A DNA stretch of 64,000 nucleotides from a virus. Shown one piece after another: positions 46,589 to 58,894 of this stretch. The stretch is from IMG/VR virus record IMGVR_UViG_3300028844_004840, positions 62,001 through 126,000 of that record; one strand, 5' to 3'. The translations under genes were made by a program, and so were the position numbers. Position 1 is the first letter of the stretch. Each line of letters opens with the position of its first letter. The notes below the pieces were generated by a model. The model saw only the letters and a program-made list of their open reading frames with translations, did not search any database and was not told where the DNA came from.

Positions 46589-47082
46589 GCGACACCTGTC
46601 AAAATCATGTCGAAACCTTCATCTTTCGTTGGGCGTACGTACGCCGAACGTAATCGATCATCCGCAGCAGCAGGTATCAATTTTCCTTCGCGACCTTTCA
46701 TTCTCATTTGTCTAAGTTCTTCATCGATTTCAAAGTATACAGCTACTTTAGAATAGATCTTAGGTAATTGTGATAAAAACTTTCTACGTGATTTTAGGGA
46801 CAAATTGGTGCGATCAACCGCAATTGATTTTTTCGATTCGATGGCTTCACGGAATTCGATATCCATAGCCTTTGTGGCTTCATCGATGTGTTGCACCCAA
46901 ACACGGTCATAAGTGGTTCCGTATGCTTTCGCTACTTTCTCGACATAGTCGTCTGTCGATAAGAAAGTGTAGTTGGTCCCCAAGCTGGTACGCCATGTGG
47001 ATTTACCCGAACCAGGTAAACCCACAAGCAGAACACATACTGGCCCCGCGATGTTTCCATTAGCCGTTACAAGATCATTCAT
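46585..47082 (-). CDS. polynucleotide kinase-like P-loop kinase
   Basis: 165 aa. Walker A GLPGSGKST (21-29), STDDY (about 42-46), AVDRTNLSLKSRRK (about 88-101) and a basic lid (QMRMKGREGK) match the kinase half of T4 Pnkp. It would phosphorylate 5'-OH ends of RNA or DNA. The phosphatase half of T4 Pnkp is missing here, but a separate HAD phosphatase is encoded at 49039. It overlaps the Rnl1-like ligase gene by 4 nt, giving a heal-and-seal pair. Confidence 0.82.
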   Translation of the reverse strand: MNDLVTANGNIAGPVCVLLVGLPGSGKSTWRTSLGTNYTFLSTDDYVEKVAKAYGTTYDRVWVQHIDEATKAMDIEFREAIESKKSIAVDRTNLSLKSRRKFLSQLPKIYSKVAVYFEIDEELRQMRMKGREGKLIPAAADDRLRSAYVRPTKDEGFDMILTGVA

Positions 47083-48365
47083 TCATTGTCCTCCGTTTCG
47101 TTCCAGTCAAATGAGAATTCCCATTTGTCTTTTATTTCTCGCCACTTAGTTTCAGACACTAGCCCGCTCTCAAGTGCTTTCATTGCTGCTTTCTGGCTGT
47201 CTTCCAGCTTGCCGTCCCACAATGCGAACACGAGTGAACGAATGTGAGGTTGGTCTGCCAATTTACCGCTTACAGCGAAACCTCGTTTTGTGTCGAAATC
47301 CCGTTTTGACCACTCGTAGTAGGTTTCTATCTTGTCTTCAAGCAAATTCATTTCGCCCCAGAAAGAATCTACAAATGCAGTTAGTCGATCTTGATCTTCG
47401 GTGTCCAGTAAGGGAAGAAGATCATCGATTGTATCTGAGAGAATAACGGTGATGAGATTTCGCTCCGTCGCCATCTTCTCTTTCGCTCTGTGTAAATCAA
47501 CGTATTCTTCTGTCTTTACCTTTACAAAGCCCCAACTAGGCCACCACAAGACGACGCCTTCGGGAATGTCCGAAGATTGTCGAATACTTTGGACAAACTT
47601 TGTGGCGAGGCCTTCGTTGGTAGTTGTATCCCATGCATCTAATCCTGTATTATTGCCGATGTCGGCATTATAAACATCTACAACAGGTACGTCGAAAGCG
47701 TTTGCGACTTGGAGAACGTCTTCGCGGGACCAGTATACCCCACTTATAGTTTCTCGAATAGCCAGCAAGACCATGTCACGCTTTGGATAAGATACGACGA
47801 TGCGGTTTTCTTTAGACACATATTCGAAGATGGGGGTAACACCTAGTTCCATGCAGGCGCGCGCCATGTTCTCATACTTATCATACTGTGCTGCGAAAAT
47901 CTGTGCCATTTTTGCAACGTCAGTATCAGGACCCATTTTGGTGCCCCACCGCACTTTATCTGCGACCAAGAACGGGCGCATCATGGATCCATCCATTTTA
48001 TCCATGATAACGTGTGGGGTGTTAAAAGGGAGCGCAGTCATTGATACTTCTTCACGTTCGCCAGCGTTGAAGAACTTGTGGAAAGGGCGGGATGCAATAA
48101 AGCCTGACGCAGTATTAAAGGCAATACCACGGCATTCGCGTCTTAGGGCGCTTCTCAGTGAATCTTGGTCGAGAACGTGGTTTTCCCATTCATCCCCTTG
48201 TGCTTGTTCCCACTCCGCATCGGTTGGCATTGGTGGGAACACGTCGCTGCCCATATGGTTGTAGTTGATATAGGTATATCCACAATCCTTTTCGACCACG
48301 CGGAAGGCGCTATCGCCATCCACCGCTGGGAGTATTTCGGATATATGCTGAATAGCTGGGTACAT
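47079..48365 (-). CDS. RNA ligase, T4 Rnl1-like
   Basis: 428 aa. Rnl1 features: RRECRGIAFN and SRPFHKFFNAGE before motif I, DKMDGSM with Lys123 as the nucleophile, motif IIIa FEYVSKENRIV, motif IV PEGVVLWW and motif V FVKVKTEEYVDLH, then a helical C-terminal domain. Rnl1 enzymes rejoin tRNAs cut in the anticodon loop, as T4 does against PrrC. The adjoining kinase supplies 5'-phosphates. GGAGAACAAT precedes the ATG. Confidence 0.88.
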   Translation of the reverse strand: MYPAIQHISEILPAVDGDSAFRVVEKDCGYTYINYNHMGSDVFPPMPTDAEWEQAQGDEWENHVLDQDSLRSALRRECRGIAFNTASGFIASRPFHKFFNAGEREEVSMTALPFNTPHVIMDKMDGSMMRPFLVADKVRWGTKMGPDTDVAKMAQIFAAQYDKYENMARACMELGVTPIFEYVSKENRIVVSYPKRDMVLLAIRETISGVYWSREDVLQVANAFDVPVVDVYNADIGNNTGLDAWDTTTNEGLATKFVQSIRQSSDIPEGVVLWWPSWGFVKVKTEEYVDLHRAKEKMATERNLITVILSDTIDDLLPLLDTEDQDRLTAFVDSFWGEMNLLEDKIETYYEWSKRDFDTKRGFAVSGKLADQPHIRSLVFALWDGKLEDSQKAAMKALESGLVSETKWREIKDKWEFSFDWNETEDNE

Positions 48366-48770: not shown

Positions 48771-49039
48771 TGTGACGAAAACTCGACCATGTTGGGGCGG
48801 TCCCGACACGGTATATGCGCCATAGCTGGTCCCCCTGTGCCAAGCGTTGGCAGGAAGCTGAAACAGTCACCAGTGAATGTGTCATGCAGATATAGCATGT
48901 CTTCTTCCAGATGTAGAACAAAATAATCCGTTCTAATTACCTCCCGCTCAGTAATAACATGGGGTTGTTTTTCGTACAAAAAAACTGCCGCGACCGTTCC
49001 CAACACTGCCGTCCATAAAATTGTTGTTAACCAATTCAT
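48767..49039 (-). CDS. membrane-anchored hypothetical protein
   Basis: 90 aa from ATG 49039, sharing its A with the HAD gene stop (TAATG). One N-terminal membrane helix (MNWLTTILWTAVLGTVAAVF) and a periplasmic domain with two Cys. Overlaps the SleB-like gene by 4 nt, so the two may act together in the envelope. Confidence 0.55.
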   Translation of the reverse strand: MNWLTTILWTAVLGTVAAVFLYEKQPHVITEREVIRTDYFVLHLEEDMLYLHDTFTGDCFSFLPTLGTGGPAMAHIPCRDRPNMVEFSSQ

Positions 49040-49599
49040 TAGAAATCTCCTTCTGCAACTTGAACACACATGATACCGTGCGAGCGCCACATATCTACAA
49101 CCTGATTTCGATCATCAAATACCAGTGTTGGATCGTATCCATCCGCACGCGCCTTTGCCAATAACTCTGTTTTCACGATATCGTCTTTACGGCTGTCTGG
49201 CATTTGCTTGCCCTTGCGGGTCAGTTTGATGGAGCCATCTTCATTGCGCACCCAATCGTCGCGGATATAGATTGCATCGTAGGTTATGCCGTATTTTGCT
49301 AACCACTCTTCGGTGACCTCCAAATCAATGCGACTGCGGGCTGTCATCATAACCACGACCCATCCGGCAGCTTTCAACGTCTTAACGGCGTCTATGATTG
49401 GCTGGATTGGCAGGTCCTGATCCATGTTCTTCCGAAACACGGGCCATTTATACGCCTTTGGAACAGCTTCGGATGCAAGCCGACGGTGTGTAAAATCAGC
49501 AACAGTTCCATCTACGTCGCAGAATAACACTCCGCCTACTGTTGTGTCGATTTCGGTTGGCCCTTCGTGGGCGTCAATGACTGTGAGTATTGATGCCAT
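49039..49599 (-). CDS. HAD-family phosphatase, Pnkp 3'-phosphatase-like
   Basis: 186 aa. HAD motifs: FCDVDGTVAD (Asp28, Asp30), VVMMTARSRID (motif II), a Lys-containing stretch and VFDDRNQVVDMW (motif IV). The overall order and the RIDLEVTEEWLAKYGI segment resemble the phosphatase half of T4 Pnkp, which removes 3'- and 2',3'-cyclic phosphates. With the separate kinase at 46585 it would rebuild T4 Pnkp from two genes. Confidence 0.8.
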   Translation of the reverse strand: MASILTVIDAHEGPTEIDTTVGGVLFCDVDGTVADFTHRRLASEAVPKAYKWPVFRKNMDQDLPIQPIIDAVKTLKAAGWVVVMMTARSRIDLEVTEEWLAKYGITYDAIYIRDDWVRNEDGSIKLTRKGKQMPDSRKDDIVKTELLAKARADGYDPTLVFDDRNQVVDMWRSHGIMCVQVAEGDF

Positions 49600-52075: not shown

Positions 52076-52387
52076 TTAAGGGTCGGTGCGGTCCTGAAAA
52101 AAGATCGTATCACCATCCTCGTGAAACACTGTAAACGCGTCAGTTTTCATGTCAGGACCTTCGGCGCAAACCTTTGCCCAATTCTCTGGTCCCACCGTCC
52201 ATCTAACGCCATGCGCATTGCGATCTGGCTTTGGTGCCAGTCGATGGATGGTGCCACCGTGGGTACAGGCCAAATCGTTCAGAAATGATTCGTAAAACGT
52301 CGCAGCTTCGTCAGCGGTTGTCAAGTGACCTGTGATCGGGAAAGACACTGGATCAGGGTCATCGTCGTATCGCTTTACCAATGGCAT
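52076..52387 (-). CDS. hypothetical 103-aa protein
   Basis: 103 aa, mixed alpha/beta, acidic (FPITGHLTTADEAATFYESF). Its ATG shares a base with the synthetase-like gene stop (TAATG). Function unknown. Confidence 0.5.
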   Translation of the reverse strand: MPLVKRYDDDPDPVSFPITGHLTTADEAATFYESFLNDLACTHGGTIHRLAPKPDRNAHGVRWTVGPENWAKVCAEGPDMKTDAFTVFHEDGDTIFFQDRTDP

Positions 52388-53106
52388 TACATGGATTCCT
52401 TTCGTGAGGCGTAGTTTTGTTCCGCAATCAATACCGCGCGGTCAAGTCCGAGGGCCAGTTCAAGAACTTCGTATTCGTCGCCAAAATCTGTTCGGGTGGA
52501 AATGCTCGCAATCTCTTTCCACTCACCTTTCCATGGCATTTCAATGTCCATGGTCTGCGTGCTGTAGCTAGGAAGTCGGTCGGATTCCACCAGACGAGAC
52601 GTCCCCAACATCACGGCGTCAAGCGCTGTGCGCATCGCGGTGGTGACTGGCGTGCGATAATCTGCCATAGTCCCTTTGGCATAGATGCACTGGAATTCCA
52701 GTTGGTAGAATTCATTGAATCGGAGGGTGGCAGCGCGCGCGCCGTCTGATGCCTCTACACGGAAGGATTTTCCGGCTTGCCATACACATGCCGGAAAACT
52801 CTTCTTGTTACGGAAGCGCTCACGCGCATACTGATAAGAAGACGGCGTGGTTTCAGGGCGCAAAGCCAGTTGATTTTCCGACTTGAAAACTTGGGTGAAG
52901 AACACGTCGTCACCTGTGTATTCTTTGTTCATGCAAATCTGCGGCGTTAGGATAGGACCGTCTATTTCATGGAACGTCCATGCCTTGTTGATTTCGGAAA
53001 GTGCGGGGATTACCGCATCCGCTACCGCCGAGGTGATTAGGCGGCGTAGCCGCACTTGCTCCGGTGCCCAAAACGGGATTGATTCAATGTTAAGATACGT
53101 TGTCAT
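52387..53106 (-). CDS. class II aminoacyl-tRNA synthetase-like catalytic core
   Basis: 239 aa from ATG 53106 (GGAAGAGACCACT upstream, 17-nt overlap with the preceding gene). Class II motif 2 is clear: ALRPETTPSSYQ, SFRVEAS (115-120), then RFNEFYQLEFQ (129-139). Motif 3 is LALGLDRAVLI (217-227, Arg223). The context WKGEWKEIAS and TRTDFG resembles the glycyl/threonyl (IIa) group. There is no anticodon-binding domain. It might charge an unusual tRNA, such as the one at 56346-56414, or act on another substrate. Confidence 0.75.
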   Translation of the reverse strand: MTTYLNIESIPFWAPEQVRLRRLITSAVADAVIPALSEINKAWTFHEIDGPILTPQICMNKEYTGDDVFFTQVFKSENQLALRPETTPSSYQYARERFRNKKSFPACVWQAGKSFRVEASDGARAATLRFNEFYQLEFQCIYAKGTMADYRTPVTTAMRTALDAVMLGTSRLVESDRLPSYSTQTMDIEMPWKGEWKEIASISTRTDFGDEYEVLELALGLDRAVLIAEQNYASRKESM

Positions 53107-53623
53107 AGTGGTCTCTTCCCCATTCCATTTCTTCAAGAACATCACCCATATCGACTTTATGGTCAAAACATATGTCCTCGATCATTTCTTTAGTTACGCC
53201 ACCCATTCGATTATACGTCAACGCTTCGGCTGCTGCCGTCTTTACATCTTCACTCGCCATTTGATCCCTTTCGAAAAAAAAATTGTCAACCATTCCCTGA
53301 GGCGTTTCGAATACCTGTGCACGCTCACTGATAGTATAAGCGATGATGGCAAGTTGTTCGTAATGCATCATGGTCATCCCAATTATCTTGGAAATATCAG
53401 CATCCGTTCCGAGAATGCGTACAGGAATATTTCGGTCCCGATACACTTTGCCCCCGAAGGACCATTGCCCTGTAACGGGTTTTAGGATGGTCAGTCCGCC
53501 GGACACCATCATCACCTTTCGGTCCCACTCTTTGTGGTGTTTGGTGGTAACCGGAGTGCCGTCGTTATATTGGCAAGGGACGAGAATTTCCCAAAGAGCC
53601 TTGGGGTCCTCTTTAATCGGCAT
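53090..53623 (-). CDS. phage protein of unknown function
   Basis: 177 aa. The first 75 residues match a recurrent phage family (ALWEILVPCQYNDGTPVTTK, WDRKVMMVSGGLTILKPVTG, GQWSFGGKVYRDRNIPVRI) with no known function. The remainder is helical. Overlaps its neighbours by 11 and 17 nt. Confidence 0.6.
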   Translation of the reverse strand: MPIKEDPKALWEILVPCQYNDGTPVTTKHHKEWDRKVMMVSGGLTILKPVTGQWSFGGKVYRDRNIPVRILGTDADISKIIGMTMMHYEQLAIIAYTISERAQVFETPQGMVDNFFFERDQMASEDVKTAAAEALTYNRMGGVTKEMIEDICFDHKVDMGDVLEEMEWGRDHYDNVS

Positions 53624-54026: not shown

Positions 54027-56174
54027 TTATGCGTCAGCCATTTCAGCCAAGATTTCGTCTTGTGCGGCGCGTAGGGCACCTACCGTTGCCTTTGGGGCAT
54101 CTGGATCGTCGCTGCCCGCATACTCGATTATATCCCCGAAAGACGTGCGGTACTTGCCATAGTTGACAAAATAATCCAACGTTTCTTTCAGCGTTCCAGC
54201 CTTGGCGTGGACGTTCGCGCCTTGGTTCCAGTTGCCGGATAGGTCAACATAGATCATTTCACCCGTATCTAGGTCCAGCAGGGCTGGCGTGCAGTTACGG
54301 TTGGCGCTGTCCAAAGACATTTTGCTTTCCACGGTTGAGCACTCGAAGTGGTGCCCCGTTTGCCCGTCGCGGATCATCAGACCAACATTACATTCAAACG
54401 TATCGAAGTTGTTTCCACTGTACACGTTCGCGTTCATGAGGATATAACGAACACCGCGTTCTTTAGCTTTCGCCACGTCAATGTCAATGTATTCCGCTGC
54501 GCCGTTGCTTCCGTTCAAAATGTCGCCGGAATGTTTCATCCCAGTCCCATTCAGATTGTAATAGGCACAATCAAACAGCTTGTCCAAATCTTCATTGTAC
54601 GCGACCGCTGACATGTCTACGTCACAGCTTTCGTGCCAATGCAAGAAGAAGCGAATTGTATCCGAATCTTCGAAGGACAGTTTCACACGGTCGCCGCGAT
54701 TGGAACGCGTGTCCCCCTCAGAAGCATTGCGACCACCGACAGGTACGAACATACCGTAGGCATCCGATGGAATACCCTTGCGGCTGAAAGACAGGGTCCC
54801 TGCGAGACGTTCGCGAAGGTGCTTTTCAAGGTCCGCCTTAACCGTAAACGGGATAGGCTCACGTCCACGCTCAGACTTCATCAACGTGCCGTTAGGCAGC
54901 GCGTGAAAACGATTCACGGTGTTAGCCGTTTTCGCCATGTGCGTGTTAAGCTGTAGCAATGTCATCGCGTTTACCTCAGGCAACGCTGTACGCGCGGCGC
55001 TGATCAAACGGTTGCGGCCTTTTCCTTCGGCATCAACTGCACGGCTAAGCGCAGTCATACGACGAGCAAGCTCGCCCGGACGCTGCATTGCCATATCGAT
55101 CTTCAAGCCGATAGGTGCGGCAGCATACTTTTGCTCCCACGACTGCATGTTTCCCTTGCGGAGGGTGCGCAGGACTTCGGCGGCACGCGGCGCGACCTTG
55201 TTGTGGCGGTTGCTTGCAACGTGGGATGCAAAGCGCTTCCAGAATTCAACGTTACGCATGAAGTCTGTTTCGTGATCGGTGTTGCCGCGTTCCAAGATTG
55301 CGTCGATGATCTTCATCATCTTCTTGCCTTGGTTCTTGTTCAACTTGAAGCGTGGATTCATGTTGAGAGACAAGTCTGGCTCCACTGTTACATTGGATAC
55401 GAGGTGTGCGCGCCATCCGGTTCCGGTCTTGCGAACGACTTGCGTTCCAGACAGGTGTACAGCGAGACGTAAAACATCTGTGACAGAGTTACAGAGAGAG
55501 GCATACACATCCGCTGAGAGGTCTGCGGCTACCAAGGGCAGCTTTTCGCGGAACTTCACGTTGCGTACAACTTCACTCGATACAATGTCAGCATCCAGTG
55601 ACCACTTGACGAAAGCCAGTTCGGTCGGTGTGAATGGTGTTAGGTTGCCCAGCATTGCCGCAGCCTTGTCGCCCAAATCCGCATGGGACATTGGCTTCAA
55701 GAAGCGAATCTTGCGGCGAGAGTTACCCTTTTCTGCCTTGAATTCGAGCGTGTATTCGTTATCGAAGTCCACGTTTGCGCCATGCATGTCGCTTTGGAAC
55801 CCTGTTACCGGGTCAGCACCATATACACGTGCGTCAAATTCGAGGGCGGCTCCGAGTGCACGCAGCATCCACACAGAAATACGTGCTTCAAGAGGCACGA
55901 TAGTGTGATTTGGAAACTGTCGGTACAGTGGCGAGGTCTTCGCCGAGATGCCGTCGATGTTTGTGGAGAGCGCTTCGCCGATGCGTATGAAGATCGTGCC
56001 ACGCTGGGTTCCGGTCATCGCTTCCAACTTCTGAACGAATTCAGGTGTCAGCGAGTAGCGGTATTCAAGCGCCAAGGCGGCGATGTCCACAACTGTGGCT
56101 TCGTTTTCGTTTGCTGGTACGTTGTCCTCAACGAGAACTGCACCAAAAAGGCTCATAATGCGGGCGTCGATCAT
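54027..56174 (-). CDS. TerD-domain protein with large N-terminal helical region
   Basis: 715 aa. The last 200 residues form a TerD-like domain: HESCDVDMSAVAYNED, KLFDCAYYNLNG, HSGDILNGSNGAAEYIDIDV, then the C-terminal VGLMIRDGQTG and LDLDTGEMIYVDLSG. The N-terminal 500 residues are helical (FWKRFASHVAS, AAEVLRTLRKGN, AMQRPGELARRM) and resemble bacterial stress proteins that pair this helical unit with TerD. TerD domains bind calcium in ter stress systems. Why a phage carries it is unknown. GAAGGAGACGCAAG precedes the ATG. Confidence 0.72.
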   Translation of the reverse strand: MIDARIMSLFGAVLVEDNVPANENEATVVDIAALALEYRYSLTPEFVQKLEAMTGTQRGTIFIRIGEALSTNIDGISAKTSPLYRQFPNHTIVPLEARISVWMLRALGAALEFDARVYGADPVTGFQSDMHGANVDFDNEYTLEFKAEKGNSRRKIRFLKPMSHADLGDKAAAMLGNLTPFTPTELAFVKWSLDADIVSSEVVRNVKFREKLPLVAADLSADVYASLCNSVTDVLRLAVHLSGTQVVRKTGTGWRAHLVSNVTVEPDLSLNMNPRFKLNKNQGKKMMKIIDAILERGNTDHETDFMRNVEFWKRFASHVASNRHNKVAPRAAEVLRTLRKGNMQSWEQKYAAAPIGLKIDMAMQRPGELARRMTALSRAVDAEGKGRNRLISAARTALPEVNAMTLLQLNTHMAKTANTVNRFHALPNGTLMKSERGREPIPFTVKADLEKHLRERLAGTLSFSRKGIPSDAYGMFVPVGGRNASEGDTRSNRGDRVKLSFEDSDTIRFFLHWHESCDVDMSAVAYNEDLDKLFDCAYYNLNGTGMKHSGDILNGSNGAAEYIDIDVAKAKERGVRYILMNANVYSGNNFDTFECNVGLMIRDGQTGHHFECSTVESKMSLDSANRNCTPALLDLDTGEMIYVDLSGNWNQGANVHAKAGTLKETLDYFVNYGKYRTSFGDIIEYAGSDDPDAPKATVGALRAAQDEILAEMADA

Positions 56175-56345: not shown

Positions 56346-56414
56346 CCTGCTGCTCTACCAACTGAGCTACCCGATGCAAGCACCGAGGTTGGATTCGAAC
56401 CAACGACCCGCAGG
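56346..56414 (-). tRNA. circularly permuted tRNA-like gene
   Basis: Read on the minus strand, the 3' half comes first: anticodon-stem strand CCTGC (56410-56414), variable loop GGGTC, T arm GTTGG-TTCGAAT-CCAAC, acceptor strand CTCGGTG (56381-56387). Then a CTTG tetraloop (56377-56380) and the 5' half: acceptor CATCGGG (56370-56376), TA, D arm GCTC-AGTTGGTA-GAGC, A, anticodon-stem strand GCAGG (56346-56350). The acceptor (7 bp, two G-U) and anticodon (5 bp) stems pair fully across the halves, so they belong to one tRNA in reversed order. C73 and G-1 recall tRNA-His. No CCA is encoded, and the anticodon cannot be read without knowing the join. Confidence 0.7.
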
Positions 56415-57694: not shown

Positions 57695-58894
57695 TCAGTC
57701 ACCCATAACTGCAGCGATGCACTCGTCACGTGTTGCCGCCATGTTTCTGTGCAGCCAAAATTCTCTGGCCTGTCGGATTGCTTTACCAAGTTCTTGTCCC
57801 TGTGTAAACCCCCTATCCATGAAATCTACTGCTTTCACAGGAAATTTCTGTTCAGAAGCCACTTGCAAGGCTCTGCCAGTAAAGTCGTCTTTGCGCAGAT
57901 ACCCCAGCTCGCGCGCAAGCGGCATGCCGTGCACCTGTGCCAACGCTTCGAGGGACAGCGTCTGTGGATTGCTGTACAAAGTCGCCAGCGTTTCGACGAA
58001 CACGCGATCTTTTTTCGCCAACGGTAGCGGTACGTTTTTGCCGCATACAGTATATAAACGCGTGCGCCAGTCGGTGTTCGTGCCGCCAAAATCACTTTCG
58101 CCGCTCAGTAGATCAAACAGATTATACAGTGTGTGTCCGTGCGGGAACACTTCATCCAACACCCCATGCGACTGCATGCGGGTAAGTACCAGCCACAGAT
58201 GGGCGTTGTTTGTTGACGGATTGTCGAACCGCGTATTAACAGCAGATAACAGCTTCTGCATCTCCATCAGCACACGCTCACGCGATATGTCTTTTAGTCC
58301 GGCAGCGTACGCTTCGCATGCTATCATACCATCTTTGTCCATGTTGTCGAAGCCGTGCGTCGCATTGAATCGGTAGAATCGCAATATGCGTAGGTAGTCT
58401 TCGCGGCATCGTGTGGCAGCGTCGCCAACGAATCGGATACGACCTGCTTTGGCGTCTTCAATGCCTGTTCTTGTTGGGTCATATACTTCCCCGTTCAGGT
58501 CCATGTACAGCGCGTTCATGGTGAAGTCCCTGCGCTCAGCGTCTTGGTTCATGGTATCAGCGTATGCAATGGTGGCACGACGTCCGTCTGTAGCCACATC
58601 GCGACGGTAAGTTGTCACCTCGAATGTGTGACGATCTTTGACCGCTGTCCATGTGCCGTGCTCAACCCCTGTAGGAACCATTCTCCACCTAGCAGCGTAA
58701 AGCGTGTTGAAAACTTGATCAGGTGTGGCGTTGGTTGACACGTCGATGTCGTTACATGGGCGTCCCATGACAGCATCACGTACGCATCCACCAACAGCGA
58801 AGGCTTCAAAGCCATCATTGTTGAGTGTTTCCAATAGCCCGCGTAGCGGGCCTTGTAGCCATTCAGGATTTAATCGTTCAGAATCTGCTTCCAT
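57695..58894 (-). CDS. cca: CCA-adding enzyme (tRNA nucleotidyltransferase)
   Basis: 399 aa, class II nucleotidyltransferase: AVGGCVRDAVMGRPCNDIDV (33-52, with the DxD pair), TTYRRD, RRDFTMNALYMDL (121-133), EDYLRILRFYRFNA (about 168-181) and a helical tail region. It adds or repairs the CCA end of tRNAs. A phage copy is unusual. The tRNA-like gene at 56346 encodes no CCA, so the enzyme may serve it. AGGAGGACAACCCGC precedes the ATG. Confidence 0.9.
   Translation of the reverse strand: MEADSERLNPEWLQGPLRGLLETLNNDGFEAFAVGGCVRDAVMGRPCNDIDVSTNATPDQVFNTLYAARWRMVPTGVEHGTWTAVKDRHTFEVTTYRRDVATDGRRATIAYADTMNQDAERRDFTMNALYMDLNGEVYDPTRTGIEDAKAGRIRFVGDAATRCREDYLRILRFYRFNATHGFDNMDKDGMIACEAYAAGLKDISRERVLMEMQKLLSAVNTRFDNPSTNNAHLWLVLTRMQSHGVLDEVFPHGHTLYNLFDLLSGESDFGGTNTDWRTRLYTVCGKNVPLPLAKKDRVFVETLATLYSNPQTLSLEALAQVHGMPLARELGYLRKDDFTGRALQVASEQKFPVKAVDFMDRGFTQGQELGKAIRQAREFWLHRNMAATRDECIAAVMGD

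Follow-up and report, generated by a model that had tools for sequence, protein, structure and literature searches.

A stand-alone class II catalytic core with a glycyl-tRNA synthetase-type pocket in giant phages and soil bacteria

Analysis of a 64,000-base stretch of viral DNA (hereafter the window; positions 62001-126000 in a virus record of 139,562 bases) identified an open reading frame (ORF) on the minus strand, at window positions 52387..53106, that encodes a stand-alone class II synthetase core resembling glycyl-tRNA synthetase (GlyRS). Judged from its sequence, this mini-synthetase probably works like a synthetase core, and it plausibly activates glycine and passes the glycine to the acceptor end of a tRNA, a reading that we hold with slightly less than even confidence. 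Shortened synthetases are already known as a kind, and no description of this particular family was found in the literature searched.

The gene is intact, beginning with an ATG located after GGGGAAGAG, a plausible ribosome-binding site, and ending with a TAA stop codon shared with the next ATG as TAATG. Its start overlaps by 17 bases an upstream ORF of 177 amino acids (53090..53623, minus strand), and its stop overlaps the start of a downstream ORF of 103 amino acids (52076..52387, minus strand); these overlaps with both neighbors indicate that the mini-synthetase is part of an operon. By the similarities of its CCA-adding enzyme and of a 715-amino acid protein encoded nearby, the window belongs with phages of Ruegeria, Phaeobacter, and Rhodobacter of approximately 147-150 kb, and a homologue of the 103-amino acid ORF is present in phages DSS3_MAL1 and MD18. 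In DSS3_MAL1, the operon order cca ... trx ... MAL1_00157 (the homologue of the 103-amino acid ORF) is the same as that of the window, while the synthetase and the 715-amino acid gene, which stand at separate points of the window's operon, are both missing. Also encoded on the minus strand near the synthetase are RNA ligase 1 (47079-48365), a PNKP-type phosphatase (49039-49599), and the CCA-adding enzyme (57695-58894), which likely constitute a tRNA-repair set.

An earlier note on this DNA had described the product as a class II core of 239 amino acids with motifs 2 and 3 intact and no anticodon-binding domain, and each element of that description is borne out. Firstly, the ORF gives a protein of this length, and the protein matches Pfam tRNA-synt_2b above the cut-off (1.2e-9), standing alone and full length as a catalytic core. 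Secondly, all of the expected signatures are encoded in order on the minus strand: LRPETTP (residues 82-88; 52843..52863); motif 2, SFRVEASDGARAATLRFNEFYQLEFQ (residues 114-139; 52690..52767), containing SFRVE...RFNEFYQLEFQ; WKEIASISTRTDF (residues 196-208; 52483..52521), which resembles both GlyRS WGELEGIANRTDF and the SerRS-type E..S.S...DF; and motif 3, ELALGLDR (residues 216-223; 52438..52461), with the pattern E.A.GLDR. Among 65 relatives, 50 columns are conserved at 90% or above, and the window protein carries the family residue in 48 of them, the exceptions being I10 for L and D49 for E. Thirdly, the Pfam HGTP_anticodon domain is absent both from the protein and from the entire 139,562-base record, and it was not found in the complete genomes of three relatives (CcrBL9, Kabachok, and XbC2). 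This genome-wide absence rules out an enzyme split into two proteins, with the anticodon-binding domain encoded apart from the core.

Sequence and structural comparisons agree upon α2-type GlyRS as the closest known enzyme (Thermus thermophilus 1B76/1GGM, Mycobacterium tuberculosis 8U2P, Nanoarchaeum equitans 5Z5E). The best NCBIfam match is glycine--tRNA ligase PRK04173 (7.9e-14, 51 bits, far below the membership cut-off of 312 bits), and all 66 aligned family members match this GlyRS model first. When the family profile was compared with the PDB, α2 GlyRS ranked first (3e-17) with SerRS and PylRS next, near 4e-6, and profile-profile alignment of the family to a GlyRS reached 98% probability. 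An AF2 model of the window protein, confident throughout (mean pLDDT 95, pTM 0.91), likewise returned α2 GlyRS at the top both by VIA-align (Z 22.7, 2.8 A, 227 residues) and by Foldseek, rather than ThrRS, HisZ, or EpmA, which the earlier note had named alongside GlyRS for comparison. Close behind in VIA-align are ProRS (Z 21.7) and the glycine:carrier-protein ligase Bll0957 (Z 20.8), with ProRS and other class IIa cores lying 1-2 Z below GlyRS, and the closeness of these scores means that the fold by itself does not settle the substrate. The mini-synthetase and α2 GlyRS share the class II core with its motifs 1-3 and the RPET, fRxE, QxE, and E-x-[SA]-x-G-x-D-R signatures, but the former, at approximately 240 amino acids as opposed to 440-680, has no anticodon-binding domain, has lost the insertions between motifs, and carries Ala in place of Ser361. 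Given the missing domain and the NCBIfam score below the cut-off, GlyRS is not a suitable label for the protein; the core may descend from the α2-type enzyme or be its sister.

The identity of the amino acid is better addressed by the pocket, whose ATP- and amino-acid-binding residues are intact in the alignment. In T. thermophilus GlyRS, glycine is contacted by E188, R220, E239, E359, and S361. Profile-profile alignment pairs LRPETT of the family with RPETAQ of GlyRS, SFRVE with SFRNE, QLEFQ with QKELE, and LELALGLDR with IEPSLGADR, such that E85 falls upon the Glu of RPET, R116 and E137 upon R220 and E239, and E216 and A218 upon E359 and S361. Four of the five glycine contacts (E85, R116, E137, and E216) are thus retained in the alignment, and these four vary little or not at all across 66 sequences, which points to glycine as the likeliest substrate. 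The replacement of Ser361 by Ala would allow a slightly larger amino acid, and the pocket as a whole appears to favor glycine or another very small amino acid. Most likely, then, the core would bind ATP and glycine and form glycyl-adenylate.

The kinship suggested in the earlier note holds, in that the core is of a kind whose known relatives adenylate amino acids. By analogy with the amino acid:[carrier protein] ligases, EpmA, and GluQ-RS, the core could adenylate an amino acid but deliver it elsewhere than to a tRNA 3' end, for instance to a carrier protein, a peptide, the side chain of a protein, or an RNA base, an arrangement that we regard as the next most likely, though rather unlikely in itself. 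Loss of the anticodon-binding domain is a trait shared by all three of these enzyme groups (PMC9437257), the fit of Bll0957 to the model accords with such an acceptor, and the bacterial copies described below have no adjoining tRNA. The carrier-protein ligases (Bll0957, 4H2S) in particular are, like the mini-synthetase, stand-alone class II cores; they activate glycine and are present in rhizobia. They are, however, derived from SerRS and possess a zinc site and a partner carrier gene, none of which is seen in the mini-synthetase: no Cys occurs among the 50 columns conserved at 90%, indicating that the zinc site (Cys/Glu/Cys) is not kept, no PP-binding carrier is encoded in the phage record (though this record may not be complete, and the host could supply a carrier), and the genes adjoining the synthetase in 72 family representatives include no conserved partner, apart from the synteny that one phage clade shares.

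Alternatively, the core might acylate nothing at all, and either make Ap4A-type nucleotides or serve as a HisZ-like regulatory subunit. α2 GlyRS makes Ap4A, and the window protein weakly matches the NCBIfam HisZ model (25 bits, 6.6e-6, cut-off 272 not reached). This possibility is nevertheless a very improbable one, as the conserved residues include those of the amino-acid pocket and not only those that bind ATP, and the GlyRS score is far above that of HisZ. No EpmA or LysRS match to the window protein was returned by NCBIfam.

The preferred reading, glycine transfer to a tRNA, must also be viewed against the distribution of the family, which comprises 165 members (72 representatives at 80% identity) in a sample from which the closest relatives of the window's own record may be missing; retention of the core in 165 homologues excludes a chance ORF. 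Phage members include Caulobacter Bertelyvirus, Brevundimonas jumbo phages, Sinorhizobium phage Phosso, Xanthomonas phage XbC2, 635-kb metagenomic phages, and many IMG/VR contigs, while bacterial members are found in Rhizobium, Devosia, Phenylobacterium, Mesorhizobium, and Paraburkholderia. Some of these proteins already carry names, namely "aminoacyl--tRNA ligase-related protein" at NCBI (Devosia neptuniae WP_262165526.1) and "serine-tRNA synthetase" or "aminoacyl-tRNA synthetase" in phage annotations; by sequence all belong to the same family, and the names are names only. In a tree rooted for drawing only, bacterial sequences lie among phage sequences in at least two places (alphaproteobacteria, and Paraburkholderia beside XbC2-like phages), and the window sequence occupies a long branch (1.17). 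Presence of the gene in 2 of 151 sampled genomes of the Rhizobium leguminosarum family denotes a patchy distribution.

The bacterial copies are accompanied by a conserved leader. Similarity between the DNA of bacterial copies in unrelated contexts begins 150-180 bases 5' of the gene and stops with the gene, indicating that leader and gene move as a unit. The leader (loci L100-L177, approximately 75-190 bases upstream of the mini-synthetase genes) is covarying and contains a short Gly/Arg-rich ORF, whose last 12 residues are 25% Gly and 23% Arg and in which an in-frame CGA GGT is found in 75 of 79 bacterial loci, usually 75-97 bases before the start codon. The ATG of this leader ORF often lies few bases past a promoter-like site, which suggests a leaderless message. 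The codons after CGA GGT pair with a downstream GGACGT block in 98% of cells, and this helix displays 27 compensatory cells vs. 11 in shuffles (0 of 500 shuffles), with near-total loss when slid. In R. tropici (L108), TGA occupies the position where others have CGA. Conservation of the CGA GGT may reflect RNA pairing and not the encoded amino acids. An attenuator is the natural reading of such an arrangement, with Gly-tRNA, Arg-tRNA, a drug, or RNA structure alone as candidate signals. The leader matches no Rfam family and was not found in the literature searched, and a scan of L131 detected no intrinsic terminator.

If the acceptor is an RNA 3' end, most likely that of a tRNA, recognition would presumably involve the acceptor stem and CCA end, with the anticodon left unread. 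Many phage copies do lie in or beside tRNA arrays: when the genes within each locus are ranked by how far they lie from the nearest tRNA, the mean rank of the synthetase is 0.27 across 29 loci, which are not independent, a value inflated by shared ancestry, and 8 of these loci are within 120 bp of a tRNA vs. 6.0 expected. This association is suggestive. No tRNA partner is common to all family members, and beside bacterial copies ARAGORN finds a tRNA in one of 79 loci, 2.4 kb off.

A more specific association involves amber (CUA) tRNAs and raises the possibility of a dedicated synthetase for such a tRNA, a natural PylRS-like pair. In phage Phosso (tRNA at L004:7594-7669) and in eight giant-phage contigs (L042, L046, L050, L052, L056, L061, L062, and L064), a CUA tRNA, the only tRNA that ARAGORN finds in the stretch, is located 53-1875 bp upstream of the synthetase, and G73 is present in eight of these nine tRNAs (in L046, L042, and L064 counted by the base after C72). 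A CUA tRNA is also encoded by XbC2 and, in a tRNA array approximately 85 kb from the synthetase (L015:9448-9523), by the window's own record. Like the mini-synthetase, the PylRS catalytic domain is a class II core of small size that lacks a classical anticodon-binding domain. The nine loci are, however, syntenic and fall in one supported clade, which also holds L073, a locus without a CUA tRNA, and they may therefore represent a single event; this clade also shares an upstream CysRS-like gene and a PTH2-like gene. Additionally, pattern searches yielded no CUA tRNA in the complete Caulobacter (CcrBL9) and Brevundimonas jumbo phages and only Arg(TCT)-like matches in bacterial genomes, the acceptor stems of the CUA tRNAs differ widely, and the PylRS match of the window protein (5.5e-7; NCBIfam PylS catalytic-domain model, 29 bits, cut-off 178 not reached) is far weaker than that to GlyRS. 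Synthetase-bearing loci also give no general sign of TAG recoding, as TAG still ends genes and coding density is rarely increased when it is read as sense. On this evidence a dedicated amber pair is improbable, and a combined scenario, in which Phosso-type phages carry an orthogonal amber pair built from a GlyRS core independently of pyrrolysine and bacteria carry an attenuator-controlled back-up enzyme, is decidedly improbable. Pairing of the CUA tRNA with the synthetase is thus best treated as a lead and not a conclusion. Amber tRNAs without known targets have been reported in jumbo phage XacN1 (PMC5852040), and proximity of a CUA tRNA to the synthetase in the syntenic clade was not found in Rfam or the literature searched. 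In a separate observation, the coding density of one locus with a family member (L088) rises from 0.15 to 0.53 with TAG as sense, and this may be a TAG-recoded phage.

The earlier note had placed the mini-synthetase approximately 3 kb from a "permuted tRNA" and proposed that the two form a dedicated pair; the location is correct, at 3.2 kb, but the pairing is not supported by comparative data and is exceedingly unlikely. Proximity is what speaks for it, and the RNA does have tRNA-like halves without CCA. This RNA (56348-56412, minus strand), however, matches the tRNA-like part of Rfam YrlA RF02553 (40.3 bits, E 1.3e-7, that part only, gathering score of 69 not reached), and from its sequence it looks like a YrlA-like RNA, a Y RNA that mimics tRNA. 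In Ruegeria phage RpAliso and Rhodobacter phage RcXuper, a YrlA-like RNA is located a few hundred bases upstream of a homologue of the 715-amino acid protein, permuted halves also adjoin such homologues in L224 and Rhodococcus phage Weasels2, the RpAliso and RcXuper genomes give no synthetase match, and no permuted or YrlA-like RNA occurs near any other synthetase locus looked at. In RpAliso and RcXuper the YrlA-like RNA accompanies the 715-amino acid gene and not the synthetase.

The 715-amino acid ORF (54027-56174, minus strand) encodes a helical N-terminal part and, at its C-terminus, a TerD-like domain that matches TerD structures with Z 12.8-15.2. TROVE proteins with tRNA-like partners have been described in phages (PMC7824862); the 715-amino acid protein is not called a Ro protein here, as Pfam gives no TROVE (Ro60) match and only the TerD part is recognized in a low-confidence model (pLDDT 66). 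This TerD-domain protein is possibly a novel kind of Y RNA partner in phages. Several further observations concern the same module. The window's phage record encodes a tmRNA (L015:1509-1871, G000:21509-21871; tag AANDNAAPTEMAIAA; Rfam alpha_tmRNA and tmRNA_permuted), and tmRNAs lie just upstream of the YrlA-like RNAs of RpAliso and RcXuper. A GGCATACTTCTA-like motif, possibly a phage promoter or processing signal, is repeated before the Y-RNA-like elements of the window (about 56245, 56432, and 56534, minus strand) and in the same stretch of RpAliso (L210, about 3222, 3366, 3693, and 3799). Lastly, IMGVR_UViG_3300029911_000001 (L221, L032) encodes a mini-synthetase and, approximately 85 kb away, a distant homologue of the TerD-domain protein.

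Taken together, these analyses separate the synthetase from a module in which a Y RNA is linked to a TerD-domain protein, and describe what would be a natural minimal synthetase: a 240-amino acid core that has its glycine-type pocket intact but lacks an anticodon reader, kept by many giant phages and by several soil bacteria, in the latter under a conserved leader. If the core transfers glycine to tRNA, the phage copy may add to the genes that supplement translation, acquired singly within an operon that lies near the genes for RNA ligase 1, the PNKP-type phosphatase, and the CCA-adding enzyme, while the bacterial copy could act as a back-up glycylation enzyme that is switched on when the ribosome slows at the Gly/Arg codons of the leader ORF. 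Should the core charge tRNA, it would show how much of a synthetase is dispensable and provide a small scaffold for tRNA-charging work; should it acylate something else, it would represent a new phage activity.
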